A stretch of 33,847 nucleotides of DNA from Burkholderiaceae bacterium (lineage in GTDB: Bacteria; Pseudomonadota; Gammaproteobacteria; Burkholderiales; Burkholderiaceae_E), in assembly GCA_023383035.1 (NCBI GenBank), contig JAHDYE010000011.1, positions 1-33,847 of the forward strand. The letters are read 5' to 3'. Below are positions 4,161 through 33,847 of this stretch, piece by piece. The position numbers and the translations under genes were made by a program. Numbering within the stretch: the stretch's first letter is position 1; every line of letters begins with the position of its first letter. The notes under the pieces are model-generated. The model searched no databases, had not been told where the DNA came from, and was given only the letters and a program-made list of their open reading frames with translations.

Positions 4161-4171
4161 GGATGTTCTCC

Positions 4172-8780: not shown

Positions 8781-9286
8781 GCTGCGTTTCCGCGGTTGAG
8801 AGTGAGTCTGCGCACGCACTTGGTCACCTCGACGATGACCTGCAGGGCGAATAGCACGAAGGCGACCAGGAACACGACGCGAAACGGCCACACCGGAAGG
8901 TTGAGCGCCGACTGTCCGCTGGTCTCGCCGCTCCTGTACCCGTCGACCAGGTAGCGGTACATCTGGTAGCTGAGCCAGATCAGCAGCGGCAGCATGACGG
9001 TGTAGCCGACCAGGTCGATCGCCGCGCGGGTGCGCTCGGAGAACTTGCCGCTGAACACGTCGATGCGGATGTGCGCGTCCTCGCGCAGGGTATAGGCCAT
9101 GCCGAGCAGGAAGTGCGAGCCGGTGAGCAGGTATCCCACCTCGTAGGCCCAGATGGTCGGCGCGCCCATCGCGTAGCGGGCGAATACCTCGTAGCAGGTC
9201 GCGAGCACCAGAGGGACCAGGACCATCGCCGCGGCGATGCCGACGCTTCCGGTGACACGTTCGATCGACTTCGTGAGCGCATTCAT
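8777..9286 (-). CDS. dctQ: TRAP transporter small permease subunit DctQ (system 1)
   Basis: This is a 169-residue four-helix membrane protein. Typical DctQ signatures are an early membrane segment leading into CYEVFARYAMGAPTIWAYE, then HFLLGMAYTLREDAHIRIDVF. It bridges the periplasmic receptor and the DctM subunit. It overlaps dctM by 4 bases. Unusually for a TRAP operon, 205 bases with two hairpins separate it from its receptor gene. Confidence 0.92.
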   Translation of the reverse strand: MNALTKSIERVTGSVGIAAAMVLVPLVLATCYEVFARYAMGAPTIWAYEVGYLLTGSHFLLGMAYTLREDAHIRIDVFSGKFSERTRAAIDLVGYTVMLPLLIWLSYQMYRYLVDGYRSGETSGQSALNLPVWPFRVVFLVAFVLFALQVIVEVTKCVRRLTLNRGNAA

Positions 9287-9318
9287 CGCGCCCTCCCCTT
9301 ACTGGTTGGTGACGGACA

Positions 9319-9346
9319 ACGATCGGCGCCGCATCGTGCCGATCGT
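9319..9346. other. Inverted repeat in the dctP-dctQ gap
   Basis: ACGATCGGC at 9319-9327 pairs exactly with GCCGATCGT at 9338-9346 across a 10-base loop. It lies 33 bases before the dctQ start in a 205-base gap. There is no T-run, so it is not a simple terminator. It could be an RNA processing or regulatory structure, or chance in GC-rich DNA. Confidence 0.35.
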
Positions 9347-9450
9347 CGGCGGGCGCGTCTCGCGCCGCCCCGGCCCCACCCGGCGCGGACTGCCGGGCAG
9401 GACTGCGCACCGAGCGGTGAACAAGCCGGATGTGCAACGGTCAGCAACAA

Positions 9451-9474
9451 GATGGGGTGCTTTCGCACCCCATC
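9451..9474 (-). terminator. Strong intercistronic hairpin after dctP (attenuator or mRNA stabiliser)
   Basis: GATGGGGTGC at 9451-9460 pairs perfectly with GCACCCCATC at 9465-9474 around a 4-base loop. In the direction of transcription it falls 17 bases after the receptor stop codon and is followed by TTGTTGC rather than a clean U-run. The likely role is partial termination or 3'-end protection of receptor mRNA, giving more receptor than permease, as is common for binding-protein operons. Confidence 0.65.
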
Positions 9475-9491
9475 GTTTCGGCGACGAGCGC

Positions 9492-10553: not shown

Positions 10554-10595
10554 TCCCCGTCTCCTCTGTTGTCTTTGGTTCGGACTTCGCTAGGA

Positions 10596-11408
10596 CTAGG
10601 CTGCTTGCTCGGCGACCGGGCCGTCGAGCGAGACCGGCGCGTCGGGCCGTCGGTACTTCTCGATCACCGGTTTCAACTCCGGTTTGATGTGGTCTTCGCT
10701 GTAGCCGTTGAAGATGGTTCCGACCAGGCCACGATCGAGGTCGCTCGTCCCCATCAGCCAGTCGGCGATCGGGAACGTCAGGTTCATGTTGTGCCCCATC
10801 ATGATTCCGTAGTTGTGGTGCGCCGTGTGATGACGCCTGATCGTGTTGATGAAGGGCGTGTGGCGCACGAACCAGTTGTCATGGACGTGGCAGCAGTAGT
10901 GGAAGCTCTCATATATCAGGTACTGCCCGACGATCGTCACCATCAGGATGTAGCCGGCGTTCGGGTTGATCAGCGCGCCGAGCACGAGCGCGAACGGCAC
11001 GCCCAGCGCCATGAAGGTGAACAGCGCACGCCACGGAAAGAAGATGATCCGCCATTCGCGCGCAGTGTCCACCGTCATCTCGTTGTCGGTGAAGTACTGG
11101 TGGTGCTGACGCGTGTGGCGGTCGTAGATCGCGCGCAGCGCCCACACGTCGATCAGACGATGCATCACGTTCTTGTGCATGTACCACTCGAACAGGTTCG
11201 AGAAGACGAACACCGGCACCACGAGCAACCACTCCCATCCGGCGTTGTCGAGGCGCATGACGCACCACCAGATCACCGCGATGCCCACGACGTAGATCAC
11301 GGCGATGTGCAGCGGGCCGTTGTAGGCGGGGTGGATCTCCGAGCGGTACTGCTCGCGAAACGCCACTTGGCGGGGCGACGGGTTGTGCCGTTCGATCAGT
11401 TCTGCCAT
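10596..11408 (-). CDS. Fatty acid hydroxylase / sterol desaturase family di-iron membrane protein
   Basis: This 270-residue integral membrane protein has the histidine boxes of the superfamily: HKNVMH, HTRQHHQYF, a further HYCCHVHDNW, and RRHHTAHHNYG near the C-terminus. It has several hydrophobic helices. Family members use O2 and two irons to hydroxylate or desaturate a hydrocarbon chain. The ATG at 11408 has AGGAGG 6 bases upstream, far better than the longer upstream frame. It sits between the fused methyltransferase (106 bases away) and dctP (42 bases). Its job in a demethylation locus is unclear: it could modify the substrate, or it may be a passenger. Confidence 0.85.
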   Translation of the reverse strand: MAELIERHNPSPRQVAFREQYRSEIHPAYNGPLHIAVIYVVGIAVIWWCVMRLDNAGWEWLLVVPVFVFSNLFEWYMHKNVMHRLIDVWALRAIYDRHTRQHHQYFTDNEMTVDTAREWRIIFFPWRALFTFMALGVPFALVLGALINPNAGYILMVTIVGQYLIYESFHYCCHVHDNWFVRHTPFINTIRRHHTAHHNYGIMMGHNMNLTFPIADWLMGTSDLDRGLVGTIFNGYSEDHIKPELKPVIEKYRRPDAPVSLDGPVAEQAA

Positions 11409-11470
11409 GGCTGTCCTCCTTTGCTGCGTGATTGCCGAATGCCAGATCCGGGAGACTGCCGTCATGCGTC

Positions 11471-11644
11471 CGGCGCTGCGCGGTATCGTGTCATGCACCG
11501 TGGCACCGAGCGGCTCACGCCGCCAGCAGACGCTTGGCTTCGTTGACTGCCTGCACCGCGTCGGCGGCGAATCCGTCGGCGCCGATCTGGCGCGCGAACT
11601 TGTCGCTGACCGGCGCCCCCCCGACGAACACCTTGCGCCCGTCG
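11471..11644. repeat. Source copy of an imperfect direct repeat (3' end of fused methyltransferase gene plus downstream spacer)
   Basis: This segment covers the last about 43 codons of the fused gene and about 45 bases beyond its stop. It matches 13545-13714 in the same orientation, by eye at roughly four of five bases with several small indels. The matching blocks include GCACCGCGTCGGCGGCGAA and the spacer motif TATCGTG near the outer end. The second copy is degenerate and is listed separately as a pseudogene fragment. Confidence 0.7.
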
Positions 11645-13440
11645 CGCAGCCCCCGCGCGTCGAGCTCGCGGATGATCGCGGGCATTTCCATCATCGTCGT
11701 GGTAAGCAGCGCCGACAACCCGATCACGTCCGGGCGATGCTCGGCGACCGCGTCGCAGAACGCATCGCGCGCGACGTTCACCCCTAGGTCGATCACCTCG
11801 AATCCGACCCCGCGCAGCATCGTCACCACCAGGTTCTTGCCGATGTCGTGCATGTCGCCCTTGACCGTGCCGATCAGCACGCGCCCGCGCTTCTCGTTCG
11901 ATCCGCCCGCCGCCAGGTGCGGCTCGAGCACGCTCACCGCGCTGCTCATCGCGCGTGCCGCGAGCAGCACCTCCGGAATGAACGCCTCGCCGCTCGCCAT
12001 GCGCTTGCCCACCACGTCGATCGCCGCGATCAGCCCCTTGTCCAGGATGTCGCGCGCCGCCACGCCCTGCGCGAGCAGTTCGGCGACATGCTCCCTGATC
12101 GCCAGGTGCTTGCCCTTGCTCACGTCCTGGCGCACCTGCGCGTAGATCTCCTCGCCCGCCGCTTCGCCCGCCTCGGCCGCGGCCGACGCCGCGACCGCGC
12201 CGCCTGCACCGGCCGTCGGCAGCGGCCGGAACGCCCCCGCCTTCAGCGGCAGCGACCCCTCGCGCTCGACCCGCTCGCCGATGCGCTGCAGCCGCGAGAA
12301 GATCGCCCCGGGCGGCACCTGGTCAGCCACCCCGACCAGGTAGCGCGTTCCCGGCGCGACCGCACGAAACAACTCGTCCAGGTAGGCCTCGAAGTCCGCC
12401 TCGCTGGTCTCGGGCAACACCACCGTCGAGGGCACGCCTCCGAACAGCGTGAGCTTCGGGCTCCAGCGCCGGTAGTACTCGGCCAGGCTCAGCTTCGTCA
12501 TCGGCGCCGGACAGATCGACTCGGCGATGTGCATCCCCGACTCGCGGATCAGGCCCATCAGCCCCTCGTTCTCGCCGTCGGTGTGGCACATCAACAGCTT
12601 GCCGCGCGCCTCGAGCGCCGTCGAAACCTTGCGCAGCCACGGACTGATCTCGCGCTCGAAGTAGGGCGGGTACGTGATCATGTCGTCGTAGTTCGCGCCC
12701 CAGAATACGACCTCGGCCGGCGAATCGCACTGGATCGCGAGCATCCGCTCGAACAGCGGCTCCATCTGCGAGGCCAGCCGCTGGAGCTTGTCGTAGTGGT
12801 CCTTGTAGTGGAAGAAGAACTGCGTCGAGTCGATCAGGTCGCGCTGGATCTCGTTGACCGGCGACGCGCCGAACGGACCCATCGAGACGGCCACGCCGTC
12901 GTCGCGCATCTCCTCGGCGGACCAGCGGTTGAAACGTTCGGGGTTGAGCTTCAGGTCGAGGTGTTCGTACAGGCACCCTGCCGCCTCGTAGTCGTCCACG
13001 GACTTGATCAGCGGTTCGACGATGGTCGGGATCGTCGTGCCGAGCCGCTGCGCCTCGAGGTCATAGTGCACGGTGGTGCTGACCATGCCCAGCGGCGTGT
13101 GGTACTCGACCCGCATTCGCGGACCGTCGTGTACCACCTTGACCTCGACCTTGTTCGAGATCACCAGGTCGTAGACCGTATCGCGGCTGCCGAACAAGCC
13201 GATGCCGCGATGCAGGTACATCGGCTGGATCGCCGGGTCGAGCTGGTCGTCGGCAAAGCGAAAGTACAGCGCCCAGCCCTCGGCGCGCGCGATCTCGTTC
13301 ATCGCGCGTCCGGCGTGCTGCGCGGGCAGCGTGCCGCAGGTATGGTTGGCGAGATACCACAGGTCCAGCCGCGGAACGTAGGGCAACCGGTCGACCTGCT
13401 CGCCGCGAAACGCAGCGAGCATGCGCGCCTTGTGGTTCAT
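11515..13440 (-). CDS. Fused URO-D-type methyltransferase and corrinoid-binding protein (CmuA-like domain order)
   Basis: This 641-residue two-domain protein joins an N-terminal URO-D-type methyltransferase (about 1-400) through an Ala/Gly/Glu-rich linker to a C-terminal corrinoid module (about 440-641). The latter has a helical cap and the B12 signature GDMHDIGK (His near 530), then SALLTT and VFVGGAP. The domain order is that of CmuA, the chloromethane methyltransferase of aerobic methylotrophs. Near residue 285 it reads MCHTDGENEG, with Asp at the position of the zinc Cys, followed by SICPAP. One chain could take the methyl from substrate and hold it on its own cobamide, for MeTr (3276-4160) to pass to H4F. 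The ATG at 13440 has AGGAGA upstream; a longer frame would run through the operator. Confidence 0.87.
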   Translation of the reverse strand: MNHKARMLAAFRGEQVDRLPYVPRLDLWYLANHTCGTLPAQHAGRAMNEIARAEGWALYFRFADDQLDPAIQPMYLHRGIGLFGSRDTVYDLVISNKVEVKVVHDGPRMRVEYHTPLGMVSTTVHYDLEAQRLGTTIPTIVEPLIKSVDDYEAAGCLYEHLDLKLNPERFNRWSAEEMRDDGVAVSMGPFGASPVNEIQRDLIDSTQFFFHYKDHYDKLQRLASQMEPLFERMLAIQCDSPAEVVFWGANYDDMITYPPYFEREISPWLRKVSTALEARGKLLMCHTDGENEGLMGLIRESGMHIAESICPAPMTKLSLAEYYRRWSPKLTLFGGVPSTVVLPETSEADFEAYLDELFRAVAPGTRYLVGVADQVPPGAIFSRLQRIGERVEREGSLPLKAGAFRPLPTAGAGGAVAASAAAEAGEAAGEEIYAQVRQDVSKGKHLAIREHVAELLAQGVAARDILDKGLIAAIDVVGKRMASGEAFIPEVLLAARAMSSAVSVLEPHLAAGGSNEKRGRVLIGTVKGDMHDIGKNLVVTMLRGVGFEVIDLGVNVARDAFCDAVAEHRPDVIGLSALLTTTMMEMPAIIRELDARGLRDGRKVFVGGAPVSDKFARQIGADGFAADAVQAVNEAKRLLAA

Positions 13441-13513
13441 GGTCTCTCCTGTGGAGCGTCGACGCGTCGAACGCCGCCGGGAGCACCGCCACCCGATTAC
13501 GAGCAAACGCCGA

Positions 13514-21385: not shown

Positions 21386-22324
21386 ATGCGCCTGCGACAC
21401 GTCGAAATCCTCTACGCGATCAAGAAGACCGGCTCGATCAGCGCCGCCGCCGAGGCGCTCTCGATCACCCAGCCGGCCGCCAGCAAGATCCTGAAGCACG
21501 CCGAGCAGCGGCTCGGCTTCGCACTGTTTCGCCGCAGCCGAGGGCGCGTATACCCGACCGACGAAGCCGAACTCCTGCTGATCGAGGTCGAGAAGGTGTT
21601 CGCCGCGCTCGAGAGAACCCGGGACGCCGCGCGCATCCTGCGCCAGCGCCAGGACACGCGCCTGACCGTGGCCTGCCTCCCGAGCCTCGGCTTCAGCGTC
21701 GTGCCGCGCACCGTACAGTCCTTCCGGAAACGGCATCCGGGAACGATGATCGAGATCGGGGCGCGCCACTCGTCGGAAATCATCAGCTGCCTGCTCGCCC
21801 GCGAGTTCGACCTCGGCATCGGCTTCGGTCCGGAGAGCGGCGAGTGCGCCCCGCTCGGGATCGAGGCAACCCTGCTCGCCGTGGGCCGGATGCTGTACAT
21901 CGACCACGCTTCGAGCCGCGCCGCCACCGCCACCGGGAGCGTGCGGCTCTCCGATCTCGATGAACGACGCCTCATCGGACTGAACACCGGGCACCATCTC
22001 GGCACGAGCCTCAATCGCGCCCTCACCGAGCACGGACTGACCGGCGTGCCCGGCATCCAGGTGCAGACCTACTATTTCGCGCTCGGCCTCGTGGCGGCGG
22101 GTACCGGATGTGCGGTGGTCGACGAGTTCACGGCCGGCGCGAGCTCAGCCGACGTCATCGTCCGTCCGATCGAACCGACGATCCGGTTCGGTGTGTACGC
22201 GTACACTCGCGGGCCGCGTCCGCCCGATGGCCGGATGCTCGAGTTCCTCGAGTGCCTGCGCGCCACGTGCCTCGACAACCGTGTCGGTGATGACCGGTTG
22301 GCCGCCCGCCCAGCGGCGCGATGA
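21386..22324 (+). CDS. LysR-family transcriptional regulator
   Basis: This 312-residue regulator has the N-terminal winged helix (LRHVEILYAIKKTGSISAAA, then ITQPAASKILKHAEQRLGF, FRRSRGR) and a periplasmic-binding-protein-like effector domain (RLTVACLPSLGFSVVP onward). There is no Shine-Dalgarno sequence; GATAAT at 21373-21378 lies only 7 bases before the ATG, so the transcript may be near-leaderless. It converges on the imidazole-acid operon with 29 bases between stops, not divergent from any likely target. LysR proteins of amino-acid and aromatic pathways often sit at an operon end, so control of that operon is possible but unproven. Confidence 0.87.
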   Translation: MRLRHVEILYAIKKTGSISAAAEALSITQPAASKILKHAEQRLGFALFRRSRGRVYPTDEAELLLIEVEKVFAALERTRDAARILRQRQDTRLTVACLPSLGFSVVPRTVQSFRKRHPGTMIEIGARHSSEIISCLLAREFDLGIGFGPESGECAPLGIEATLLAVGRMLYIDHASSRAATATGSVRLSDLDERRLIGLNTGHHLGTSLNRALTEHGLTGVPGIQVQTYYFALGLVAAGTGCAVVDEFTAGASSADVIVRPIEPTIRFGVYAYTRGPRPPDGRMLEFLECLRATCLDNRVGDDRLAARPAAR

Positions 22325-22353: not shown

Positions 22354-23541
22354 TCAGACCCGGCTGACCGCGACGACCGCCGAGACGAATGACTCGACCT
22401 GCCCTTCCTGCAGGCCGGCAATGTTGACCCGTCCGTCGTCGACCATGTAGATCGCATGCTCGCGGCGCAGCCGCTCGACTTGCGCGGCAGTGGTGCCGAT
22501 CAGCGAGAACATGCCCCGGTGCCTGCGCAGGAAGTCGTACCGGTTGGAGTTCGAGTGTTCGGCGAAGACCCTCGCCAGCTCCGAGCGCAGCGCGACGATC
22601 CGGTCGCGCATGGTGCCGAGCTCTTCGCGCCACTGCGCCGAAAGCGCCGGATCCTGCAGGATGATGCGTACCAGCGACCCGCCGTGATCGGGCGGCATCG
22701 AGTACGCGATGCGCGCGCACGTGAGCAACTGGCCCCGGGCGATCCCGGCCCGCGCGGCTGTGTCCGCCAACACGAAGGCGCAGCCGGTTCGCTCGCGGTA
22801 GATGCTGAAGTTCTTGCAGCTCGAGACCGCGACCAGCATCTCGGGCAGCCGGCGTGCGAAGAGACGCACCGCATGGGCATCCTCGTCCAGGCCGTCGCCG
22901 AAGCCCTGGTAAGCGAGGTCGACGAACGGAACGAGCCCACGCGCGAGCACGAGCTCGCAGACGCGCTCCCAATCGTCTTCGGCGAGACTCGCCCCGGTCG
23001 GATTGTGGCAGCAGCCGTGGAGCAGCACGACGTCGCCCGGCGCTGCATCGTGCAGGCCGGCGAGCATCGCCTCGAGCTGCACGCAGCTGCCGACCGGGTC
23101 GAAATAGGGGTAAACGCGCGTCGCCAGCCCGGCGTCGCTGAAGATCGCATGGTGGTTGACCCAGGTGGGGTCTGGGAGCCAGACCGAGGCCTGCGGGCGC
23201 GCGCGAGCGATCAATGCCGCGAGGATCCGCAAGGCGCCCGCTCCGCCCGGAGTTTGCGCGGAGGCGAGCCGATCCACCGGTGCGTCATCGCCGAGGACGA
23301 GTTTGGCGATGCTGCCGCAGTAGGCTGGATCGCCGCCCGGGCCGAGATAGGCCTTCGTATCCTCGGTCTCGTAGAGTCGGCGCTCGGCTTCGCGCACCGC
23401 GCGCATCACCGGCGTGCGCCCCGCACTGTCTCGGTACACACCCACCCCCAGATCGATCTTGTGGGGCCGCGGGTCGCCGCGGAACAGGTCGATCAGCGAG
23501 AGGATCTTGTCCGGGGGCGAGGGCTGCAGGAGTTCGAACAT
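22354..23541 (-). CDS. Aromatic amino acid-type aminotransferase (class I, PLP-dependent)
   Basis: This 395-residue aminotransferase belongs to the AspC/TyrB group. Visible landmarks are the N-terminus DKILSLIDLFRGDPRPHKID, HGCCHNPTGASL (PLP-contacting Asn), FVDLAYQGFGDG, the Schiff-base Lys in VSSCKNFSIYRERTG, and the substrate-carboxylate Arg in GRVNIAGL. TyrB-group enzymes act on aspartate, phenylalanine and tyrosine, and several also accept histidine/imidazolepyruvate. It is the last gene of the right-hand operon, 15 bases after the FAD-linked dehydrogenase. The pair would convert a 2-hydroxy acid to a 2-oxo acid and then to an amino acid, which the ammonia-lyase next door could use. Confidence 0.9.
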   Translation of the reverse strand: MFELLQPSPPDKILSLIDLFRGDPRPHKIDLGVGVYRDSAGRTPVMRAVREAERRLYETEDTKAYLGPGGDPAYCGSIAKLVLGDDAPVDRLASAQTPGGAGALRILAALIARARPQASVWLPDPTWVNHHAIFSDAGLATRVYPYFDPVGSCVQLEAMLAGLHDAAPGDVVLLHGCCHNPTGASLAEDDWERVCELVLARGLVPFVDLAYQGFGDGLDEDAHAVRLFARRLPEMLVAVSSCKNFSIYRERTGCAFVLADTAARAGIARGQLLTCARIAYSMPPDHGGSLVRIILQDPALSAQWREELGTMRDRIVALRSELARVFAEHSNSNRYDFLRRHRGMFSLIGTTAAQVERLRREHAIYMVDDGRVNIAGLQEGQVESFVSAVVAVSRV

Positions 23542-23556: not shown

Positions 23557-24975
23557 TCAGGTGGGTTGGCGGTCGACCAGCTTGCCCGGGTTGAGCACGC
23601 CGACAGGATCGAAGGCGAGCTTGATCGCACGCATGATCCCGATTTCCGCGGGCGAGAGCATTCGTGCCAGCGCGTCGCGCTTGCCTTGCCCGATGCCGTG
23701 CTCGGCGCTTACGGTTCCACGCAGCGACAGCGCGATGTCGTCGATCATGCGCGACAACTCCTCCGAACGCATGCGGAACTCCGTGTCCGCCATGCCCGGC
23801 GGGGGCAGGACGTTGAGGTGGATGTTGCCGTCGCCGACGTGGCCGAACGCGACCGGCCTGCAGCGCGGAAGGCGGTGCTCGAGTTCCGACTCGACACGCC
23901 GGATGAACTCAGGGGAACTCGCAACCGGAACCGCCGTATCGGTCTTCACGATGTGGAACCGGGCCTCACCCATCGCCACGGCGATGCCCTCGCGAAGGGC
24001 CCACATCGAGCGCCGCTGCGCAATCGAACTCGCGACGCTGCCGTCGAGCAGCAGGCCGGCCTCCATCGCCCGATCGAGCAGCGACTGGAAGGCGGCGTCC
24101 AGGTCCATGAAGCGGCTCGTGCTCTCGGCCTCCAGCAGCGCCAGCCACGGCGTCGGGCGGTCGAGCGGCTCGCGCCTCGCCTTCACGTGTGCGAAATGGA
24201 ATTCCACCGCGGGACGCGACATCAGCTCGAACGCGGAGACCGTCTCTCCCAGCACCGATCTCGCCAGCAGGAAGAGATCGAGCGCCTTCTGTGGCGACTC
24301 GACTCCGAACACGCCGGTCGCGAACGCGATCGGCGCCGGGCGCAGCTTCAGTGCCACCGCGGTGACGACCGCGAGCGTTCCCTCCGAGCCGACGATCAGC
24401 GAGCGCAGATCGTACCCCGCATTGCATTTGCGCAGCACGGACGGCGGCCCGAGCACGCTTCCGTCGGCGAGCACCGCTTCGACGCCGAGCACCTGGTCGC
24501 GAGCCATGCCGTAGCGGAGGACGTTGTTGCCGCCGGCATTCGTGGCAACGTTGCCGCCGATCGAACTGGACCCCGCCCCGCCGTGATCCAGCCCGAGCAG
24601 GCGGTTTACGCCGAGCGCAGCCTGCTGGAGTTCGTGAAGGGTGCAGCCCGCGTCGGCCACCATCACGTCGCCTACCGTGTCGATCGAACGGATGCTGCGC
24701 ATGCGCTCGACCGACAACAGCACGGCGTCCTGTCCGGGCAGCGGCAGGGCGCCGCCCGCGAACCCGGTTCCGCCACCCCGGGGAACCAGCGCAACGCCAG
24801 CCGCGCGGCAGGCGGCCACGACACGCGAGACCTGTTCCGTGTCGGCTGGACGCGCGACACAGAGGATGCCGGCATCGACACGGTGGACGCTGTCGCAGCG
24901 GTACGCGCCGAGATCCCCGGGCTCGACGAGCAGCCCCGCGCCGCCCAGGATCTCGCGCAGCCTCGCGACGATCAC
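23557..24975 (-). CDS. FAD-linked 2-hydroxyacid dehydrogenase (GlcD / D-lactate dehydrogenase family)
   Basis: This 472-residue flavoprotein has the FAD_binding_4 domain (VPRGGGTGFAGGALPLPGQ, SSIGGNVATNAGGNNVLRYG) and the C-terminal FAD-oxidase domain (AFGHVGDGNIHLNVL, SAEHGIGQGKRDAL). Relatives oxidise D-lactate, glycolate or D-2-hydroxyglutarate to the 2-oxo acid and pass electrons to the respiratory chain or ETF. The GTG at 24975 has GAGGG upstream and gives a normal N-terminus; the longer frame overlaps the lyase gene. Placed between an ammonia-lyase and an aminotransferase, it may oxidise imidazolelactate or an aryl-lactate. That substrate is inference. Confidence 0.9.
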   Translation of the reverse strand: MIVARLREILGGAGLLVEPGDLGAYRCDSVHRVDAGILCVARPADTEQVSRVVAACRAAGVALVPRGGGTGFAGGALPLPGQDAVLLSVERMRSIRSIDTVGDVMVADAGCTLHELQQAALGVNRLLGLDHGGAGSSSIGGNVATNAGGNNVLRYGMARDQVLGVEAVLADGSVLGPPSVLRKCNAGYDLRSLIVGSEGTLAVVTAVALKLRPAPIAFATGVFGVESPQKALDLFLLARSVLGETVSAFELMSRPAVEFHFAHVKARREPLDRPTPWLALLEAESTSRFMDLDAAFQSLLDRAMEAGLLLDGSVASSIAQRRSMWALREGIAVAMGEARFHIVKTDTAVPVASSPEFIRRVESELEHRLPRCRPVAFGHVGDGNIHLNVLPPPGMADTEFRMRSEELSRMIDDIALSLRGTVSAEHGIGQGKRDALARMLSPAEIGIMRAIKLAFDPVGVLNPGKLVDRQPT

Positions 24976-24994
24976 GACCGTCGGCCCTCGAAGG

Positions 24995-26611
24995 CTAGTG
25001 CAGCGCGCCCAAGTCGCGTTCGGCGACATCGAGCGCGACGCCCTCGGTCGCGATGCGGATCGCGGGGCCGGTCTGGCCAGGCATGTACGAATCCTCCGTC
25101 CGGAACGGGATTGCCTCGCGCAGCGCGCGGTAGACCGCAGCCGTCCCTTTCCCTAGCGCAAAGCCCCCGAGCTGCGACTCGGTGACGTAGATCGCCCGCG
25201 CCGCGAGCATCAGCTCGATCCCGACGATCTTGGGCAGGTTGTCGATGACCTGGCGGGTCTTTCGACACGCCCAGGTGGCCATGCTGACGTGGTCTTCCTG
25301 GTTGCTCTTGGTCGGAATCGTGTCGACACTGGCGGGAAAGCAGAGGCCCTTGTTTTCGGACGCGATCGCCGCAGCCGAGCAGGAGATCACCGCGTAGCCG
25401 CTGTTCAGGCCCGGGGGATTGCCCGCGAGATTGGGAGGAAGCCCGTAACTCAGCGTGCTGTCGCACAGCGCGAAGAGCCTGCGCTCCGAAATGTTGCCGA
25501 TCTCGGCCAGCGACATCGCGACGATGTCCATCGCGAAGGCAATCGGCTCGCAGTGGAAGTTGCCGCCCGACAGGAACTCGAGCCGGCCGTCCGGGTTCCA
25601 GAAGACGAGCGGATTGTCGGTGGCGGCGTTCAGTTCGTTGGTGATCACGCGTCGTGCGTAGGCCAGGTTGTCGCGACACGACCCGTGCACCTGCGGGAGA
25701 CAGCGGAACGAGTACTGATCCTGGACGCGTGCCGAATACGTGGGGTGCAGCAGGTCGTCGGCGAGGCGCACCTTTCTCGCGGCCTCGGTCGTGCGCTCGC
25801 TGCCGGCGATGAGCCGCCGGATGTTCTCCGCCACGTCGATCTGGCCGGGCTGGCGGCGCGCAACGTGGATGCGCGGATCGAAAGCGGCCTGTTCGCCGCG
25901 GATCGCCTCGAGGCTGAGCGCTGCCGCCACGTCGGCCTGCCTGGCCTGACGCTCGGCGTCGTGAACGTTGAGCGCCGCCATCGCGGCGCACAGGCTGTTG
26001 CCGTTGATGAGCGCCAGACAGTCCTTGGCCTCGAGCGCGAAGCTCACCGGGGAGATCGCGGCTTTCGCCAGTGCCTGCTGCGCAGACATGCGCTCGCCCT
26101 CGAACCAGGCCTCGGCGGCCTCGTGCCCGATCAGCACCGACACCACGTGCGCCAGCGGCGCGAGGTCGCCGCTGGCGCCCACCGAACCCTGCACGGGAAC
26201 CACCGGATGGACACCGCGGTTGAGCATCTCGACCAGCCGGTCGACCACTTCGATCCGCAGGCCCGATACCCCCTGGCAGAACGCGTTGATCCGGATCGCG
26301 AGCATCGCGCGAACGACGTCCTGCGGGGCCGGTTCGCCGATGCCGGCGCAGTGGGAAAGGACGATGTTGAGCTGGAAACGGTCGTTGTCGGCTTGGGCGA
26401 TCGCGAAGTCCTTGAGCTTGCCCACGCCCGTGTTGAAGCCGTAGACCGGCGGCGCACCTTCCTTCAGCCACTCCCTTGCGATGTAGTCGCGTACGCGAAC
26501 GATCTCGGCACGGCAGGCGGCGTCGAGTTCGACTTTTGCGCCGTGCCTCGCGATCTGCACAACGTCCTCGATCGTGAGGCTCGCGCCGTCGAGGTGGATG
26601 ATTCGGCTCAT
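24995..26611 (-). CDS. hutH: Histidine ammonia-lyase-family protein (MIO enzyme)
   Basis: This 538-residue aromatic ammonia-lyase has the Ala146-Ser147-Gly148 triad that self-cyclises to the MIO cofactor (QGSVGASGDLAPL). It retains the positions used by P. putida histidine ammonia-lyase: Tyr57 (VYGFNTG), Ser86-His87 (LSHCAGIGEP, the pair separating histidine from Phe/Tyr lyases), Asn203, Gln297-Tyr300-Arg303 (VQDQYSFRC), Phe352 (SGGNFH) and NQEDHVSM with the histidine-lyase Glu. Neighbouring residues differ from the usual enzyme: NTGV instead of NTGF, and LINGNSLC instead of LINGTQxS. It should release ammonia (or a methylamine) from histidine or a close analogue to give urocanate or an analogue. 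A urocanase-like gene heads the same operon. The ATG at 26611 has an AGAGAAGA ribosome site. Confidence 0.88.
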   Translation of the reverse strand: MSRIIHLDGASLTIEDVVQIARHGAKVELDAACRAEIVRVRDYIAREWLKEGAPPVYGFNTGVGKLKDFAIAQADNDRFQLNIVLSHCAGIGEPAPQDVVRAMLAIRINAFCQGVSGLRIEVVDRLVEMLNRGVHPVVPVQGSVGASGDLAPLAHVVSVLIGHEAAEAWFEGERMSAQQALAKAAISPVSFALEAKDCLALINGNSLCAAMAALNVHDAERQARQADVAAALSLEAIRGEQAAFDPRIHVARRQPGQIDVAENIRRLIAGSERTTEAARKVRLADDLLHPTYSARVQDQYSFRCLPQVHGSCRDNLAYARRVITNELNAATDNPLVFWNPDGRLEFLSGGNFHCEPIAFAMDIVAMSLAEIGNISERRLFALCDSTLSYGLPPNLAGNPPGLNSGYAVISCSAAAIASENKGLCFPASVDTIPTKSNQEDHVSMATWACRKTRQVIDNLPKIVGIELMLAARAIYVTESQLGGFALGKGTAAVYRALREAIPFRTEDSYMPGQTGPAIRIATEGVALDVAERDLGALH

Positions 26612-26625: not shown

Positions 26626-27798
26626 TCAGGTGGATGGTGCGTGAGTTCGCCGGCCCTCCGCGGCATCTACGCTGCCGTGGAGCCCGGCCAACATTCGAAG
26701 CCGCTGGTCCGACGAACCGAACAGTGCGTCGATCACCGCGAGGCGCTTGAAGTAGCCGCCAACGGGAAGCTCGGCGCTCATTCCCATGCCGCCGTGCAGT
26801 TGAACGGCACCGTGGGCCACACTGCGGCCCGCCCGACCCACCGTGATCTTGGCCATCGACAGCAGCCGCTCGGCCGCCGGAAGGCTCTCGGCGAGCGCCA
26901 TGCAAGCCGCCATGACGATCGAGCGGGCCTGCTCCAGCGCGATCAGCATGTCGACCTGGCGGTGCTGCAGGACCTGGAACTGCCCGATCGGACGTCCGAA
27001 CTGCTTGCGCACCTTCAGGTGATCGAGTGTCAGGTCGTGCAGTGCCTGCATGGCGCCCACTGCCTCCGCGCACAGCGCAGCGACCGCCGCATGCGTGAGC
27101 TCGGCGAGGATTTCGTCTCCCTGGCCAGCCTTGCCGAACCGGTCGGCGTCACCGGCACGGACCGCACGCAGCCGCAGGCGGCTGGCCCGGCCTCCGTCGA
27201 GCCGCTCGAAGTGCCGCGCTTCGAGCCCGGGTGCGTCGCCGTCGACCAGGAAGAAGCCCAGCGCGCCGCCTTCGGCGCCCTCGACGCGCGCGGCGACGAG
27301 GATCTTTCCAGCCGTCTCGGCGTCGAGCACGCAGGGCTTCTCCCCGTGCAGCGTGTAGCCGCTGTGGCAAGGTACCGCCCGCGTGGCGATCGCCGACGGC
27401 ATGCAGCCCGACGGATCCTCGTGCAGGGCCGCGGCGAAGCGCAGATCTCCCCGGGCCAGGCGCGGAAGCAGTTCCTGCCGTTGCGCGTCGGATCCGAAGC
27501 GCAGGATTGCCCGGGCGCCGACCACGGCGCTCGAGAGGAAGGGTTCGAGCGCTCCTGCCCTTCCGAACGCCTCCATCAGGATCATGGTCTCCAGCGGCCC
27601 ACCGGACATGCCGCCGAGTTCCTCGGGCAACTGCAGAGCGAGCCAGCCGAGCTCGGCGATTCCCCTCCAGTCACCCGCCTCGGACGCCTTTCCGCCGGCA
27701 TGCGCCGGGCCACCTCGGGATCTGGCCGCACGCGTGGCGAAGTAGGCCGACGCACTGTCCTGCAGCATCCTTTGCTCTTCGGTCGGAACGAAATCCAT
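26626..27798 (-). CDS. Acyl-CoA dehydrogenase, small-subunit type
   Basis: This 390-residue acyl-CoA dehydrogenase fold protein has KVRKQFGRPIGQFQVLQHRQ (FAD/dimer region) and QLHGGMGMSAELPVGGYFKR. The C-terminal segment that in classical enzymes carries the catalytic base (YEGTxEIQR) reads FGSSDQRLRM, so this chain probably lacks a complete active site. It is the typical partner in PimC/PimD- or ChsE-like heteromers. It lies 9 bases after the large-subunit type gene and 14 before the lyase. Together they would desaturate a CoA thioester made by the adjacent CoA-transferase. Confidence 0.9.
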   Translation of the reverse strand: MDFVPTEEQRMLQDSASAYFATRAARSRGGPAHAGGKASEAGDWRGIAELGWLALQLPEELGGMSGGPLETMILMEAFGRAGALEPFLSSAVVGARAILRFGSDAQRQELLPRLARGDLRFAAALHEDPSGCMPSAIATRAVPCHSGYTLHGEKPCVLDAETAGKILVAARVEGAEGGALGFFLVDGDAPGLEARHFERLDGGRASRLRLRAVRAGDADRFGKAGQGDEILAELTHAAVAALCAEAVGAMQALHDLTLDHLKVRKQFGRPIGQFQVLQHRQVDMLIALEQARSIVMAACMALAESLPAAERLLSMAKITVGRAGRSVAHGAVQLHGGMGMSAELPVGGYFKRLAVIDALFGSSDQRLRMLAGLHGSVDAAEGRRTHAPST

Positions 27799-27807: not shown

Positions 27808-29010
27808 CTAAAGGCCTAGCACCTGCCGCGCCAAGATGTTGCGCTGGATCTCGTTCGAGCCGCCCCAGATGCTCACCTTGCGCAGGTTGAAGTAGAGGGG
27901 ACCCACGGCAGCCCCGAACTCGGGTGCGAGCGCGTCGCCGTCGGAACCACGCCCTTCGAGCGTCTCGACATCGAAGGGAATCGCCCGCGTGCCGAAGCAC
28001 CGGAAGGCGAGCTCGGCGATCGCCTGCTCGATCTCGGTGCCGCGGACCTTGAGGATGGAGACGAGGGCGCCCGGGGTGCCGCCCTGCTCGAGCGCGCTCA
28101 GGTAGCGCAGCTCGGTGTATTCGAGCGCCGCGATCTGGGTCTCGAGGTCTGCAAAGCGCAACGCAACGTCGGGCAGGTCCGCCACGCGCCTTCCCGGTCC
28201 CTCTTCCATTCTTGCCGCCAGGCCCTTGACCCTGCGCAGCAGCCGCTTCGAACGCGGCAGCCCGGAGATCACGAAGCGCTCGTGCTCGAGCAGGAACTTG
28301 CCGTACGACCACCCCGCACCCTCGCGCCCGACGAGCTGCTCGGCCGGCACCCGCACGTCGTCGAAGAACACCTCGTTGACCTCACGATCGCCGTCGAAGG
28401 TCCGGATCGGGCGCACGGTGATGCCCGGCGAGCGCATGTCGACGAGCAGGAACGAGATCCCCTGCTGCGGCCGCTCCTCGCGGCTCGTGCGCACGAGCGC
28501 GAACATCCAGTCCGCCCACTGCGCCCAGGTCGTCCAGATCTTCTGGCCGTTGACGACGTAGTGGTCTCCGCGCAGCACGGCTTCGGTCTTGAGCGAGGCG
28601 AGATCGGAGCCCGCACCCGGCTCGGAGTAGCCCTGGCACCACCAGTCCTGGTTGGCCAGGATCCTCGGCAGGAAGCGCCGCTGCTGCGCTGCGTTTCCGT
28701 AGGTGTAGATCACCGGTCCGACCATGTTGACGCCGAACTGCACCAGCGGCGGGCAGGGTTGCGCGCCGTACTCCTGCTGGAAGAGGTAGCGCTGCGCCGG
28801 CGTCCAGCCCGGACCGCCCCATTGCTTCGGCCAGTTGACCGCGTACCATCCGCGCGCCGCGAGAATGTCCTGCCAGCGGACGTAATCGTGCTTCGCGAGG
28901 TATTGGCCAAGCTCGACCTTGCGACGAATGTCGGGCGGGAGGTGATTACCGATGAAATCGCGCACCTCGATGCGGAAGCGCTCCTCCTCGGCCGTGAACC
29001 CCAGTCGCAT
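27808..29010 (-). CDS. Acyl-CoA dehydrogenase, large-subunit type
   Basis: This 400-residue acyl-CoA dehydrogenase has the full set of motifs: WCQGYSEPGAGSDLASLKT (FAD contact), NGQKIWTTWAQWADWMF, and the C-terminal WGGSNEIQRNILARQVLGL. This is the pattern of long-substrate PimC-like enzymes that pair with a shorter partner chain. The ATG at 29010 was chosen over a TTG two codons upstream; GAGGGG precedes it. It is 13 bases after the CoA-transferase. In this operon the substrate could be imidazolepropionyl-CoA, giving urocanoyl-CoA, but any short arylpropionyl-CoA fits equally. Confidence 0.92.
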   Translation of the reverse strand: MRLGFTAEEERFRIEVRDFIGNHLPPDIRRKVELGQYLAKHDYVRWQDILAARGWYAVNWPKQWGGPGWTPAQRYLFQQEYGAQPCPPLVQFGVNMVGPVIYTYGNAAQQRRFLPRILANQDWWCQGYSEPGAGSDLASLKTEAVLRGDHYVVNGQKIWTTWAQWADWMFALVRTSREERPQQGISFLLVDMRSPGITVRPIRTFDGDREVNEVFFDDVRVPAEQLVGREGAGWSYGKFLLEHERFVISGLPRSKRLLRRVKGLAARMEEGPGRRVADLPDVALRFADLETQIAALEYTELRYLSALEQGGTPGALVSILKVRGTEIEQAIAELAFRCFGTRAIPFDVETLEGRGSDGDALAPEFGAAVGPLYFNLRKVSIWGGSNEIQRNILARQVLGL

Positions 29011-29023: not shown

Positions 29024-30223
29024 TCAGACGACGGCTTTGCCGTGGAGGTCCGCCAGTTCCGCCGCGTCCAGCCCGAGCAGCTCGGCGAGCACCGTGTCCG
29101 TGTGCTCGCCCAGCCCGGGCGCCGCAGCGGCGAAGTTCGATGCTGCCGACGAGAACTTCACCGGCTGCGGCGCCAGCCAGCAGTCGCCGAAGGCGGGATG
29201 CCGCGTCGGGAGCAGCAGATCGCGGTCGCGAACCTGCGTGCTCGAGGCCGCTGCGGCTATACCCTGAATCGGCGCGCAGGGCACGCCCGCTGCCCCGAAC
29301 GCGGCGACGACCTGCGCGAGTTCGACACCGCGACTCCAGCCCTCGATGAGCGCACGCAGCTCGGCATCGTTGCTCGAACGGGCGGAGTCGGTGGCGAAGC
29401 GCGGATCCGTGGCCAGTTGCGGCTGGCCGATGACCTCCGCCAGGGCCCCGAACAGCTTGTCGTTGGCGGCCGCCAGCACGAAGTGGCCGTCACGCGCAGC
29501 GTAGGCGCCGAACGGGGCACTCAGCGGATGGCGGTTTCCGACCCGCTTCGGCTCGACTCCCGCGTACAGGTACCGGGTCAGCGCGGTCGGCAGAATCGCG
29601 AAAAGCGAATCGAACATCGCCACGTCGACGTGCCGGCCGCGGCCGGTGCGCTCCCGCGCGTAGAGTGCCGACAGGATGCCCCAGGCGGCGAACATCCCGG
29701 CGCAAATGTCGCCTACCGACTCACCCACGAGAGTCGGCGGCCCCTCGGGGTCCCCGGTGATGCTCATCAGGCCGCTCAAGGCCTGCGCGACGATGTCGTA
29801 CGCGGGTGTCGTCGCCAGGGGTCCGCGCTGCCCGAAGCCCGAGACGCTGCAGTACACGAGACGCTCGTTATCGGCTGACAACCGCTGGTAGCCGATGCCC
29901 AGCTTGTCCGCGACTCCCGGGCGGAAGTTCTCCACGACGACGTCAGCGCGCGCCGCGAGCTGCCGCGCGATCCGCTGCCCCTCGGGACGACCTAGGTCGA
30001 GGCGAATGCCCTGCTTGTTGCGGTTGATCATCGCGAAGCTGGCGCTCTCGCCATCGATGATCACGCCCATCCGCCTCTGGTCGTCACCCTGCGGCGGCTC
30101 GACCTTGATCACGCGTGCACCGAGGTCGCCCAGCATCGCAGTGCAGTAGGGACCGGCGAGGATTCGCGAGAAATCCAGGACCAGCAGCCCGTCGAGCAGC
30201 GGCGCGCCCGCCGCGGGGCTCAC
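29024..30223 (-). CDS. CaiB/BaiF family (class III) CoA-transferase
   Basis: This 399-residue enzyme is of the formyl-CoA transferase type. Landmarks are VLDFSRILAGPYCTAMLGDLGA, IKVEPPQGDDQRR, NRNKQGIRLDL, VENFRPGV and the catalytic Asp near residue 171 in ESVGDICAGM. It moves CoA from a donor thioester to a free acid. The GTG start overlaps the dctM stop (GTGA), coupling uptake to activation. It is followed directly by the two acyl-CoA dehydrogenases, the usual order for side-chain desaturation of an imported acid. CoA could be returned from the product enoyl-CoA to the next substrate molecule, avoiding ATP cost. Confidence 0.92.
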   Translation of the reverse strand: MSPAAGAPLLDGLLVLDFSRILAGPYCTAMLGDLGARVIKVEPPQGDDQRRMGVIIDGESASFAMINRNKQGIRLDLGRPEGQRIARQLAARADVVVENFRPGVADKLGIGYQRLSADNERLVYCSVSGFGQRGPLATTPAYDIVAQALSGLMSITGDPEGPPTLVGESVGDICAGMFAAWGILSALYARERTGRGRHVDVAMFDSLFAILPTALTRYLYAGVEPKRVGNRHPLSAPFGAYAARDGHFVLAAANDKLFGALAEVIGQPQLATDPRFATDSARSSNDAELRALIEGWSRGVELAQVVAAFGAAGVPCAPIQGIAAAASSTQVRDRDLLLPTRHPAFGDCWLAPQPVKFSSAASNFAAAAPGLGEHTDTVLAELLGLDAAELADLHGKAVV

Positions 30224-31536
30224 TTCAGACCCGGCAGCCACAGGCACACCATCGGGACAGACAGCACCAGCAGTACGCGCAGGACGTCCATCGCGCAGAA
30301 GCCGAGAACCCCCCGGTAGGTCTCCTTCATCGGGACGTCCTTGGCGAGCGAATTGATCAGGAACAGATTCAGGCCGAAGGGCGGCGAGATCATGCCGATC
30401 TCCACGCTCATCAGCACGAGGATGCCGAACCACACCAGCGTGGCGTCCTTGGACATTCCCAGATCGAGCGATAGCATCAGCGGGATGAACACCGGCAGCG
30501 TGAGCAGCACCATGGCGAGCGACTCCATGAAGCAGCCGAGAATCATGTAGGCGATCACCACGCACAGCACGACCAGATAGGGCGAAGCGTTGATCTGCGC
30601 CACCATCCGCGCCAGCTCGGTGGGCATCTGCGAGGATGCCAGCGCGGCCGAGAACAGCTCGGCCGACAGCATGATCAGAAACATCATCGCGGTCGTGAGC
30701 CCTGCGCTGCGAACCGACTCGACGAAGCCCTTCATTCGCATTCCGCCCTGCAGCACGGCGAAACCCAGCATCAGGAATGCGCCGACCGCGGCGCCTTCGG
30801 AAGGCGAGAAGAAGCCAGCGTAGATGCCGGTGACGATCAGCGCGAACACTACGACGATCGGCCAGGCCCCGCGGGTGGCCGCGATCCGTTCCGACCAGTC
30901 CGCGCGCGGCACCGACGGGCTCGCGCCGGGGACGAAGCGCGAATAGAGGTTCACCACGAGCATGTACTGCACCGTGGCGATCAAACCGGGGAGCACCGCC
31001 GCTACGAAAAGCGCGCCCACCGACTGCTCGGTGTAGACGGCGTAGATCACCAGGATGATCGACGGGGGAATGAGGATCCCCAGGGTGCCGCCCGCGGCGA
31101 GGGTGCCGGTGGACAGCGCCGGCGAGTACCCCGCGTTGCGCATCTCGGGCAACGCGACCCGTGACATCGTGGCCGCGGTCGCGAGCGACGAGCCGCAGAT
31201 CGCCCCGAACGCTGCGCAGCCTCCGATGGTCGCCACCGCGAGTCCGCCGCGCCAGTGGCCGAACCAGGCCAGCGCCGCCCGGAACAATCGCGAGTTCATG
31301 CCGCCGTGTGTCGCGAACTCACCCATCAGCAGGAACAACGGCAGTACCGCCAGCGTGTTGTTCGCGAACTTCGAGTACGTCATGGTCTTGATCGCGCTGA
31401 GCAGCGGAAGCCACCCGTTGATCGCCGCGTACCCGAGTCCGCCCACGAGCAGCATCGCGCCCGATACGGTCATGCGCAGCCCGATCACGAGCAGGGCACC
31501 GGCGAACATCAGCAATCCGATATCGAATCGGTCCAA
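30220..31536 (-). CDS. dctM: TRAP transporter large permease subunit DctM (system 2)
   Basis: This 438-residue protein has about 12 membrane segments. Family landmarks are PLFLLMGEFATHGGMNSRLF, AAGGTLGILIPPSIILVIYA, FSPSEGAAVGAFLML and MISPPFGLNLFLINS near the C-terminus. The TTG start at 31536 is supported by GGAG 6 bases upstream and by the normal N-terminus. It overlaps the CoA-transferase by 4 bases. Its closeness to a CoA-transferase and acyl-CoA dehydrogenases implies a carboxylic acid as cargo. Confidence 0.93.
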   Translation of the reverse strand: MDRFDIGLLMFAGALLVIGLRMTVSGAMLLVGGLGYAAINGWLPLLSAIKTMTYSKFANNTLAVLPLFLLMGEFATHGGMNSRLFRAALAWFGHWRGGLAVATIGGCAAFGAICGSSLATAATMSRVALPEMRNAGYSPALSTGTLAAGGTLGILIPPSIILVIYAVYTEQSVGALFVAAVLPGLIATVQYMLVVNLYSRFVPGASPSVPRADWSERIAATRGAWPIVVVFALIVTGIYAGFFSPSEGAAVGAFLMLGFAVLQGGMRMKGFVESVRSAGLTTAMMFLIMLSAELFSAALASSQMPTELARMVAQINASPYLVVLCVVIAYMILGCFMESLAMVLLTLPVFIPLMLSLDLGMSKDATLVWFGILVLMSVEIGMISPPFGLNLFLINSLAKDVPMKETYRGVLGFCAMDVLRVLLVLSVPMVCLWLPGLK

Positions 31537-31569: not shown

Positions 31570-32133
31570 TCAGCCGAAGGTATGGACGTCGGTCGGAGAG
31601 CCGGCCGAGCCTGTGCGGACGCGCTGGACCGCTTCCCAGGCGACGAACAGGATCACCGCCACCCACAGGATGCAAGCGACGCTGCCCAGCGCGTAGACCG
31701 TCCATTCGGGCAGGTTGAGGAACATACTGCGCTGGTCGCGGGTGTACGCCGAGACTCCGCCGGCGGCCAGACGCCAGGTGATCATCGCGGCCACGATCGC
31801 GAACAGCAGGTTCATGACCGCGTCGAGCGCATGGTTCACCCTGCGCGGCAGCGGACGCGTGAAGAAATCGACCATCACGTTTCCGCCGTGAAGGTGGCAG
31901 TAGGGAAGGAAGCAGAAGACCAGGACTCCGGTGAGCTGGTCGACGATCTCGCTGTCGCCCAGGATCGGCTTGCCGAACTGCGCGCCGATCACCGACATCA
32001 TGATCACCATCATCACCGCGATGAGCGCCGCGCCGCCGACCATCGCGACGCTGCCGCAGATCCGGTCCAGTCGACGACGGCCGGCGGCCGTCGCGTCGGC
32101 CCCACCCCCCGATACCGGAGATACGTCGTTCAC
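31570..32133 (-). CDS. dctQ: TRAP transporter small permease subunit DctQ (system 2)
   Basis: This is a 187-residue four-helix membrane protein starting at a GTG with a G-rich ribosome site. DctQ features include AQFGKPILGDSEIVDQLTGV and HLHGGNVMVDFFTRPLP. The first 20 or so residues are a hydrophilic Gly/Ala/Arg-rich tail. It is 19 bases after dctP and 33 before dctM, completing an ordinary P-Q-M set. Confidence 0.9.
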   Translation of the reverse strand: MNDVSPVSGGGADATAAGRRRLDRICGSVAMVGGAALIAVMMVIMMSVIGAQFGKPILGDSEIVDQLTGVLVFCFLPYCHLHGGNVMVDFFTRPLPRRVNHALDAVMNLLFAIVAAMITWRLAAGGVSAYTRDQRSMFLNLPEWTVYALGSVACILWVAVILFVAWEAVQRVRTGSAGSPTDVHTFG

Positions 32134-32152: not shown

Positions 32153-33187
32153 TCATTTGCGGCCGTATCTGGCGGTCACGTCCAGGAGGTCGTCGAACAT
32201 CTTCTGCCCCGGCAGTCCGCGCTTTTCGGCGTCGGCGATCCACTGCTTGTAGACCGGTGCCATCGCCGCGCGCCACTTCGCGGTCTCCTCGGGCGAAAGC
32301 GAGTAGATCGTGTTCCCGGCATCGCCGATCGCCTTCTTGGCAGGGATCGTCAGCTCGTCGATCTTCTTCGCGACGGAAATCGAGTAGGCAACGCCGATGT
32401 TGTCGTCGATCACCTTCCTGAGGTCGGCCGGCAGCTTGTCGTAGGAGGCCTGGCTCATCAGGGTCATGATCGGGTTCTGGTACAAGGGCGTCTCCATGTG
32501 GAACTTCGTGACCTCCTGCAGCTTGTACGGAGCCATGATCGCCCAGTTGATCGTCATGCCGTCGAGCTGGCCACGCTGCAGCGCCTCGTAGACCTCGGGC
32601 AACGCGACCCCGACCGGGGTTCCGCCGAGGGTCTTGATCGCCTCGCCCACGTAACGTCCCGGAACGCGGATGCGCATGCCGGAGAGATCGGCTGCGGAGC
32701 GGACCGCCTTGGTCCGCGTGTGCAGCACCGCCGCGTCGGTCGTGTGTATGTGGATGATCTTGAGTCCCTTGAGCTCGCTGTTCATCAGCCACTTCTGCGC
32801 CCATTCGAGCACCGCAGGCGTCTGGCCCGCGGAAGTGCCGACGTTGACGAACGGCAGTTCGGTGGCCTGCAGCAGCGGGAAGCGGTTCGGTGTCGCCCCC
32901 GGAATCGTGATCACGATGTCGACCACCCCGTCCTCGACCTGCTGGATCAGGTCGCTCACCTTCCCGCCGAGCTGCATGCTCGGGTAGAACTCGAGCTTCA
33001 GCCTGCCGTTGGAGTCCTTCGCGATCTTCTCGATCAGCGGAAGCATGTGGTGCACGGCTTCCGGAGCCTGCGGGCCGGAGAATGAGTGCACCTTCAGGAT
33101 GACGGGTTGCTGCGCCATGGCGCCGGCAGAAGCCGCCATGGCGAACGTGGCGGCCAGCGCCCATTTACCGAGGGTCTTCCAGTTCAT
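32153..33187 (-). CDS. dctP: TRAP transporter periplasmic substrate-binding protein DctP (system 2)
   Basis: This 344-residue secreted receptor has a Sec-type signal peptide (KTLGKWALAATFAMAASAGA with cleavage after AMA) and DctP-family landmarks: KDSNGRLKLEFYPSMQLGGK, LSGMRIRVPGRYVGEAIKTL (the Arg binding the substrate carboxylate) and EVYEALQRGQLDGMTINWA. It starts 14 bases after the urocanase-like gene, so transport and catabolism are co-transcribed. The cargo should be a carboxylic acid; given the operon, an imidazole acid is the first guess. Confidence 0.9.
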   Translation of the reverse strand: MNWKTLGKWALAATFAMAASAGAMAQQPVILKVHSFSGPQAPEAVHHMLPLIEKIAKDSNGRLKLEFYPSMQLGGKVSDLIQQVEDGVVDIVITIPGATPNRFPLLQATELPFVNVGTSAGQTPAVLEWAQKWLMNSELKGLKIIHIHTTDAAVLHTRTKAVRSAADLSGMRIRVPGRYVGEAIKTLGGTPVGVALPEVYEALQRGQLDGMTINWAIMAPYKLQEVTKFHMETPLYQNPIMTLMSQASYDKLPADLRKVIDDNIGVAYSISVAKKIDELTIPAKKAIGDAGNTIYSLSPEETAKWRAAMAPVYKQWIADAEKRGLPGQKMFDDLLDVTARYGRK

Positions 33188-33201: not shown

Positions 33202-33847
33202 TCACAGTGAAAAATGGTTGATGTTCCTGCGCCTGCTCTCGTCGATCGCGTCGTCGTACCCGGCGTCGGCGTAGCGCATCACGCCGAGCGACGTGTCGTT
33301 GTCCAGCGTGAGCCGCAGCCGCTGCTCGGCCTGGAGCGTGCCGTCGGCGATCAGCGTGACGCCCGCGCTCGTCATGTACCCGCTGTAGCCGCCCCCACCC
33401 GAATGGATCGCCACCAGGTCGGCCTGCGACGAGCACGTGATCATCGCGTTGAGCAGGGGCCAGTCAGCGATCGCGTCGGACCCGTCACGCATGTTCTCGG
33501 TCATGATGTTCGGGTGCGCCATCGCGCCCGCGTCCAGGTGATCGCGGGTGAACGCCACCGGGGCCTTGAGCACGCCCTCGGCGACCATGCGGTTCACCGC
33601 CAGCGCGAGTTCGGTGCGGTCGCCATGGCCCATCCAGGCGATGCGCGCAGGAAGGCCCTCGAAGCGGATGTGCTCGCGCGCCAGCCGGATCCAGTTCGCG
33701 ATGATCCGGTTGTCGGCAAAGCGGTTCAGCAGGAAGTCGTCGATGGCGGCGATGTCCGCCGGGTCGTTCGACAGCGCGATCCACCGGAAGGGCCCGATGG
33801 CGCGGCAGAACATCGGCCGCAGGAAGGCCTCGGTGAAGATCGGGATG
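33202..33847 (-). CDS. hutU: Urocanate hydratase-like protein (3' part only, runs off right edge)
   Basis: The last 214 codons of a urocanase-family protein are present. The active-site Cys (P. putida Cys410) is seen in RPMFCRAIGPFRW, and RDHLDAGAMAHPN, MRDGSDAIADWPLLNA and GVMRYADAGYDDAI follow the family. Several normally near-invariant stretches differ: HSGGGGYSGYMTSAG replaces the usual HHGGGVGMGxSxHxG, MRYADAGY replaces MRHADAGY, and the GLGxR of the Rossmann region reads GHGDR. It probably hydrates urocanate or a modified urocanate (for example N-methyl- or thio-urocanate). It is the most upstream visible gene of the operon that also holds the ammonia-lyase. Confidence 0.85.
   Translation of the reverse strand, partial: IPIFTEAFLRPMFCRAIGPFRWIALSNDPADIAAIDDFLLNRFADNRIIANWIRLAREHIRFEGLPARIAWMGHGDRTELALAVNRMVAEGVLKAPVAFTRDHLDAGAMAHPNIMTENMRDGSDAIADWPLLNAMITCSSQADLVAIHSGGGGYSGYMTSAGVTLIADGTLQAEQRLRLTLDNDTSLGVMRYADAGYDDAIDESRRRNINHFSL

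Follow-up and report, generated by a model that had tools for sequence, protein, structure and literature searches.

An ergothionase-free thiourocanate hydratase operon in a Burkholderiaceae genome bin, and a possible second bacterial route into thiourocanate

The gene that is cut off by the end of a Burkholderiaceae contig is, with high confidence, best explained as encoding a thiourocanate hydratase (ErtB-type) that works with a back end of ErtD, ErtE and a desulfurase and is probably supplied by an unusual route into thiourocanate. The DNA analysed (the window, 33,847 nucleotides) is the entire contig C11 of a genome bin of 4.1 Mb in 479 contigs, 83% complete and with 5% contamination. Thiourocanate is probably not formed in the usual way: ergothionase, which releases trimethylamine, is missing, and a lyase of the MIO type is in its place. 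Tentatively, and with appreciable but less than even probability, we propose that bacteria have a second route into thiourocanate, starting from a compound other than ergothioneine, in which an MIO-dependent 2-thiohistidine ammonia-lyase would operate beside a CoA-transferase and paired dehydrogenases that recover dihydrothiourocanate. If true, this second route would imply a wider thiohistidine cycle, in which ammonia is released and trimethylamine is not.

Identity of the hydratase

In the window the gene is read on the minus strand as an open frame whose stop codon lies at 33202-33204; it runs off the contig end, and the window, which ends at this edge, shows the C-terminal 40% of the hydratase. 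The encoded part matches Pfam Urocanase_C with 259 bits (E 3e-77), which identifies it as the C-terminus of a urocanase-family protein and bears out the preliminary description in calling it a urocanase homologue, and the RDHLDxG and DGSDAxxDWPLLNA blocks are intact as described there. The end of another contig of the same genome, C109, and the start of the reverse complement of C11 have exactly 41 bases in common, the mark of a contig pair split at the assembler word length. When both contigs are joined, the frame continues unbroken from an N-terminal part on C109 to give a hydratase of 547 residues with the NAD-binding glycine motif of urocanases (LTAGLGGMGGAQ at residue 163). The join is based on sequence overlap rather than reads and is very probably correct, because the order desulfurase-hydratase-DctP that it creates is also found on single contigs in the relatives L036 and L037.

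The joined protein passes the NCBIfam model of thiourocanate hydratase, NF058530 (1009 bits, cut-off 930), and fails that of S-methyl thiourocanate hydratase, NF058531 (770 bits, cut-off 880). Two solved structures provide controls: 7ned, the structure nearest to the joined protein (842 bits), passes NF058530 with 1019 bits, and 8q9u passes NF058531 with 963 bits. In the tree, which the preliminary description had proposed as a check, the joined protein is nested with 7ned in the clade of thiourocanate hydratases (support 99) and is not placed in that of HutU, so that the refuting placement named in that description did not arise; its nearest neighbours are the proteins of L036 (86% identical) and L037 (84%). 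One could argue from the 712 bits that the protein reaches on the HutU model (cut-off 375) that it is a canonical urocanate hydratase whose changes are harmless, but this pass is of little meaning because the model is broad and is passed by 7ned and 8q9u as well. The separation of the groups in the tree, the replacement of the ICW cysteine by alanine and the adjoining desulfurase likewise speak against it, and we consider this reading extremely improbable.

A comparison of 82 thiourocanate hydratases with 35 HutU proteins identified 41 columns that are fixed differently in the two sets, and these include the HHGGGVGMG loop, the RHADAGY histidine and the ICW cysteine. The preliminary description had pointed to three altered segments near the pocket. 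Two of them, the loop (HSGGGGYSG for the canonical HHGGGVGMG) and the histidine (MRYADAGY for MRHADAGY), are indeed changed, and the changes are family-wide rather than private to the window hydratase: in the numbering of the joined protein, Ser482, Gly486, Tyr487 and Tyr525 occur without exception in the 82 thiourocanate hydratases, and 34 of the 35 HutU proteins have His, Val, Gly and His at these sites. The third change, in the GLGxR turn (GHGDR here), is real but not diagnostic, because canonical urocanases already differ there (GYGER, GLGDR). The catalytic cysteine, reported as intact in the same description, is absent. The ICW Cys of HutU has index 411 in the P. putida chain, which we take to be the essential Cys410 of the literature, and the residue aligned with it here is Ala403, in a column that holds Ala in 81 of the 82 thiourocanate hydratases and Cys in 34 of the 35 HutU proteins.

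It is very improbable that the substrate is S-methyl-thiourocanate or an N-methylurocanate. The GHGxR turn and RYADAGY are common to the window hydratase and the S-methyl-type 8q9u, but the protein stays below the S-methyl cut-off, 8q9u falls outside its clade, and the neighbouring desulfurase scores 592 bits on the thiohydantoin model against 267 (cut-off 450) on the S-methyl one. No characterised N-methylurocanate hydratase sequence was found for comparison in the libraries and literature searched. A modified urocanate, previously rated as likely as urocanate itself, is now the likelier substrate, and thiourocanate is singled out among the candidates by profile cut-off, tree and neighbouring genes. 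There are good grounds for viewing the window hydratase as an ordinary enzyme and a new member of the known thiourocanate hydratase family: it has in common with NF058530 and 7ned a score above the cut-off, the clade, the adjacent desulfurase and the family-fixed residues in all three segments flagged earlier, one of them the GLGxR turn, whose change has no diagnostic value. The enzyme itself is no different; what differs is the operon, which is without ergothionase.

Gene order of the operon

Upstream of the hydratase, C109 carries in order ErtD, ErtE, a UbiD-family decarboxylase and the thiohydantoin desulfurase, of which the desulfurase, ErtD and ErtE lie on the same strand as the hydratase. 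The scores are 761 bits for the hydantoin-5-propionate amidohydrolase ErtD (cut-off 600), 577 for the N-carbamyl-L-glutamate amidohydrolase ErtE (cut-off 520), 271 for the decarboxylase (cut-off 245) and 592 for the desulfurase (cut-off 440). Species genomes, 84,980 in all, were scanned for relatives, of which 80 were kept, and the desulfurase adjoins the hydratase in all 66 that have full flanks. The genes in the window are listed in Table 1; several operon neighbours overlap or sit no more than about 20 bases apart, and the CoA-transferase is also linked in L037, L038, L057 and L072.

Table 1. Operon genes in the window and the evidence for each
Feature	Position	Strand	Evidence and remarks
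Thiourocanate hydratase, C-terminal 214 residues	33202..33847	-	Pfam, joined protein, profile scores, tree, fixed columns
TRAP solute-binding subunit DctP	32153..33187	-	14 bases past hydratase stop; beside hydratase in L036, L037, L038
TRAP small subunit DctQ	31570..32133	-	Position, frame; relatives in L036-L038
TRAP large subunit DctM	30220..31536	-	Relatives in L036-L038, L057
CoA-transferase family III	29024..30223	-	Pfam CoA_transf_3, 428 bits; GTG start overlaps DctM stop
Acyl-CoA dehydrogenase 1, PimC-like	27808..29010	-	Profile matches, relatives' loci
Acyl-CoA dehydrogenase 2, PimD-like	26626..27798	-	Profile matches, relatives' loci
MIO-type aromatic amino acid lyase (GSVGASGDLAPL), clade outside HutH	24995..26611	-	Sole PF00221 member in genome
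FAD-linked oxidase, GlcD-like	23557..25029	-	Beside lyase in L036, L037, L131
Aromatic amino acid aminotransferase	22354..23541	-	Kept in L036, L130, L131
LysR regulator	21386..22324	+	Convergent; end of conserved module; about 60% identical in L130, L131

Hydratase, desulfurase, ErtD and ErtE occur in the same order as in the ergothioneine utilisation operon and score above curated cut-offs. Unlike that operon, the one described here is without ergothionase and adds the MIO lyase, UbiD, the CoA-transferase, two acyl-CoA dehydrogenases, the FAD oxidase and the aminotransferase; it represents a new form of the operon, with ergothionase replaced.

At the other end of the window, positions 201-13506 hold corrinoid methyltransferase genes, which may form a demethylation system: 201-2084 encodes a RACo-type activator, 5647-7394 a URO-D family protein and its B12-binding partner, and 11515-13506 a long protein that contains two B12-binding domains. 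Genes of a second TRAP transporter are also present there. The idea that these genes form a demethylating front end for ergothioneine was dropped; in genome G402 the conserved module stops at LysR, with no convincing match beyond it. None of 399 genomes sampled from the source's order scores above the cut-off for thiourocanate hydratase, and among the genomes listed, the three from the same genus (97-99% complete) lack any match to urocanase. These absences suggest that the operon was gained recently or that the contig is misbinned.

Probable entry into thiourocanate without ergothionase

Ergothionase converts ergothioneine to thiourocanate and does so without the MIO cofactor (PMC13405746); pathway facts in this section were drawn from NCBIfam names, that paper and general knowledge. 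In 51 of the 80 relatives, a lyase near the hydratase is without a detected ASG triad, as expected for ergothionase. The window, L036, L037 and G402 have the GSVGASGDLAPL lyase instead, with 78-83% identity to that of the window. The source genome (G000) yielded no MIO-less ergothionase within a bin that is 83% complete, and its sole PF00221 member has the ASG triad. One PF00221 lyase and one urocanase, the thiourocanate hydratase, were found in each of G000, G399 and G400, the last two being relatives from other assemblies. HutI above the cut-off is absent from G000 and G400, and G399 has a partial match only.

The same gene set might belong to an ordinary ergothioneine operon, with ergothionase in the unassembled part of the genome and the MIO lyase a plain histidine ammonia-lyase that happens to lie nearby. 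The incompleteness of the bin leaves room for this, and the lyase does pass the HutH cut-off, if barely (550.8 against 539.15). We nevertheless hold it to be unlikely, as the pattern is repeated in G399 and G400, the PF00221 search is able to find ergothionase-like lyases (286 bits in L128), the lyase lies outside the HutH clade, and neither a second urocanase nor, in G000 and G400, a HutI above the cut-off is present for the use of urocanate. For the same two absences, a role of the lyase as a HutH feeding the hut pathway was rejected for G000 and G400.

Among the relatives' loci, UbiD is present in 9 loci, which fall in two subclades of the tree, and in none of the 51 with an ergothionase-like lyase (Fisher p 4e-5, kinship ignored), and the CoA-transferase together with both dehydrogenases is present in 4 loci and again in none of the 51 (Fisher p 0.015, kinship ignored). 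G404 (L072) combines a CoA set close to the hydratase with an ergothionase-like lyase some 18 kb away, and the two front ends can therefore coexist. In the isolate Nitratireductor alexandrii Z3-1 (G403, the source of L057), UbiD accompanies the CoA set, and a whole-genome search detected no ergothionase. A second UbiD group, about 47% identical, sits directly downstream of the thiourocanate hydratase in L039, L043, L065, L057 and L074, all from Alphaproteobacteria and with no ergothionase in the vicinity; the known pathway has no step for a decarboxylase of the UbiD type.

The back end leads from thiourocanate through thiohydantoin-propionate, hydantoin-propionate and N-carbamyl-glutamate to glutamate. 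For the operon described here the sequences show the families to which the proteins belong and the order of the genes, and from these we infer the activity of the hydratase and the flux through this pathway: the hydratase would add water to thiourocanate and form thiohydantoin-5-propionate, the desulfurase would take out the sulfur, ErtD would open the hydantoin and ErtE would free glutamate. The source of thiourocanate would be 2-thiohistidine and/or dihydrothiourocanate and not ergothioneine. The MIO lyase may deaminate 2-thiohistidine to thiourocanate, and the CoA-transferase and the two acyl-CoA dehydrogenases may re-oxidise dihydrothiourocanate, 3-(2-thioxoimidazol-4-yl)propionate, to the same compound. 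MIO chemistry requires a free amino group, and ergothioneine, with its quaternary ammonium, is therefore predicted not to be a substrate of the lyase. This combination of a lyase acting on 2-thiohistidine with oxidation of dihydrothiourocanate by the CoA set is plausible but, on balance, less likely than not, and it counts against the scheme that UbiD is without a role in it. If some degraders of thiourocanate do without ergothionase, counts of ergothionase genes underestimate the consumers of these compounds, and other thio-imidazoles must circulate.

The MIO lyase and its relatives in Rhizobiaceae

The lyase is of the MIO type (GASGD) and groups with its subfamily in a separate clade (support 100), outside that of 22 HutH proteins (support 97). 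It shares with HutH the MIO triad and the catalytic residues, retaining without exception Tyr53, His83, the ASG triad, Asn195, Gln277, Tyr280, Arg283, Phe329 and Glu414 (residues of P. putida HAL). It differs from HutH in its separate clade, in the absence of hut genes for the use of urocanate and at Met382, a residue that presumably forms part of the ring pocket of P. putida HAL. Met382 is invariant in all 22 HALs, Ala or Gly in the lyase subfamily (Ala407 in the window lyase) and Gly in all eight ergothionase-like lyases. Of 28 columns that separate the ergothionase-like lyases from HutH, the subfamily matches the former at 8; another divergent MIO lyase, taken for comparison, does so at 3. 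As judged from sequence, these features would fit MIO chemistry on a primary amine in a pocket for a ring with an extra atom, and 2-thiohistidine is a natural guess for the substrate.

Relatives of the lyase (68-70% identical) are also encoded on pAtS4e of Allorhizobium ampelinum and on plasmids of Agrobacterium vitis; a sample of 398 genomes from the family to which G403 belongs has three with such a lyase. On pAtS4e (L159, NC_011981.1, 8030-21614) the lyase belongs to a conserved Rhizobiaceae operon in the order UbiD, UbiX, ABC transporter, PEP mutase family, ErtD, ErtE, lyase, which is found in Allorhizobium ampelinum and three further genomes. Likeness to the window operon extends to the lyase (70%), UbiD (51%), ErtD (65%), ErtE (49%) and a nearby aminotransferase (57%), and UbiD is thus common to both kinds of operon; the plasmid operon differs in its ABC transporter, UbiX and PEP-mutase-family gene. 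No hydratase or urocanase and no desulfurase was found in the Rhizobiaceae lyase operons examined. Of the three genomes from the sample of 398, one has no urocanase match, one has a canonical-scoring protein only, and in one a thiourocanate hydratase is encoded, on a different contig. Either the lyase substrate is sulfur-free in Rhizobiaceae, or part of the pathway is encoded elsewhere.

Because the subfamily occurs in operons without hydratase and desulfurase, and in one genome without any urocanase, its substrate may be sulfur-free, and the 2-thiohistidine half of the proposal is weakened by a Rhizobiaceae operon that has the lyase and no thio-specific genes. The lyase might then act on a sulfur-free histidine derivative such as 2-oxohistidine, the product entering at hydantoin-propionate, while the hydratase would be fed thiourocanate through the CoA branch or uptake. 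The link of the lyase with UbiD, UbiX, ErtD and ErtE in Rhizobiaceae favours this possibility, but these operons show no apparent enzyme to hydrate such a product and, in the source lineage, the lyase always lies within the thiourocanate operon; we consider it possible but doubtful. Where proteins of such clusters are annotated as urocanate hydratase or histidine ammonia-lyase, the names are probably wrong; hutH on pAtS4e is one example.

A further divergent pair was encountered in L129 (G401:C1:42000-60000), where a urocanase on the minus strand (4091-5737) falls below both thio cut-offs and has a QENYSMGE loop, yet keeps Cys in ICW and His in RHAQAGY. The same locus encodes an MIO lyase with Asn for His83 (11174-12871, plus strand) and has a HutI gene nearby; these genes possibly form a pathway that handles a different derivative of histidine, for instance an N-methylhistidine.
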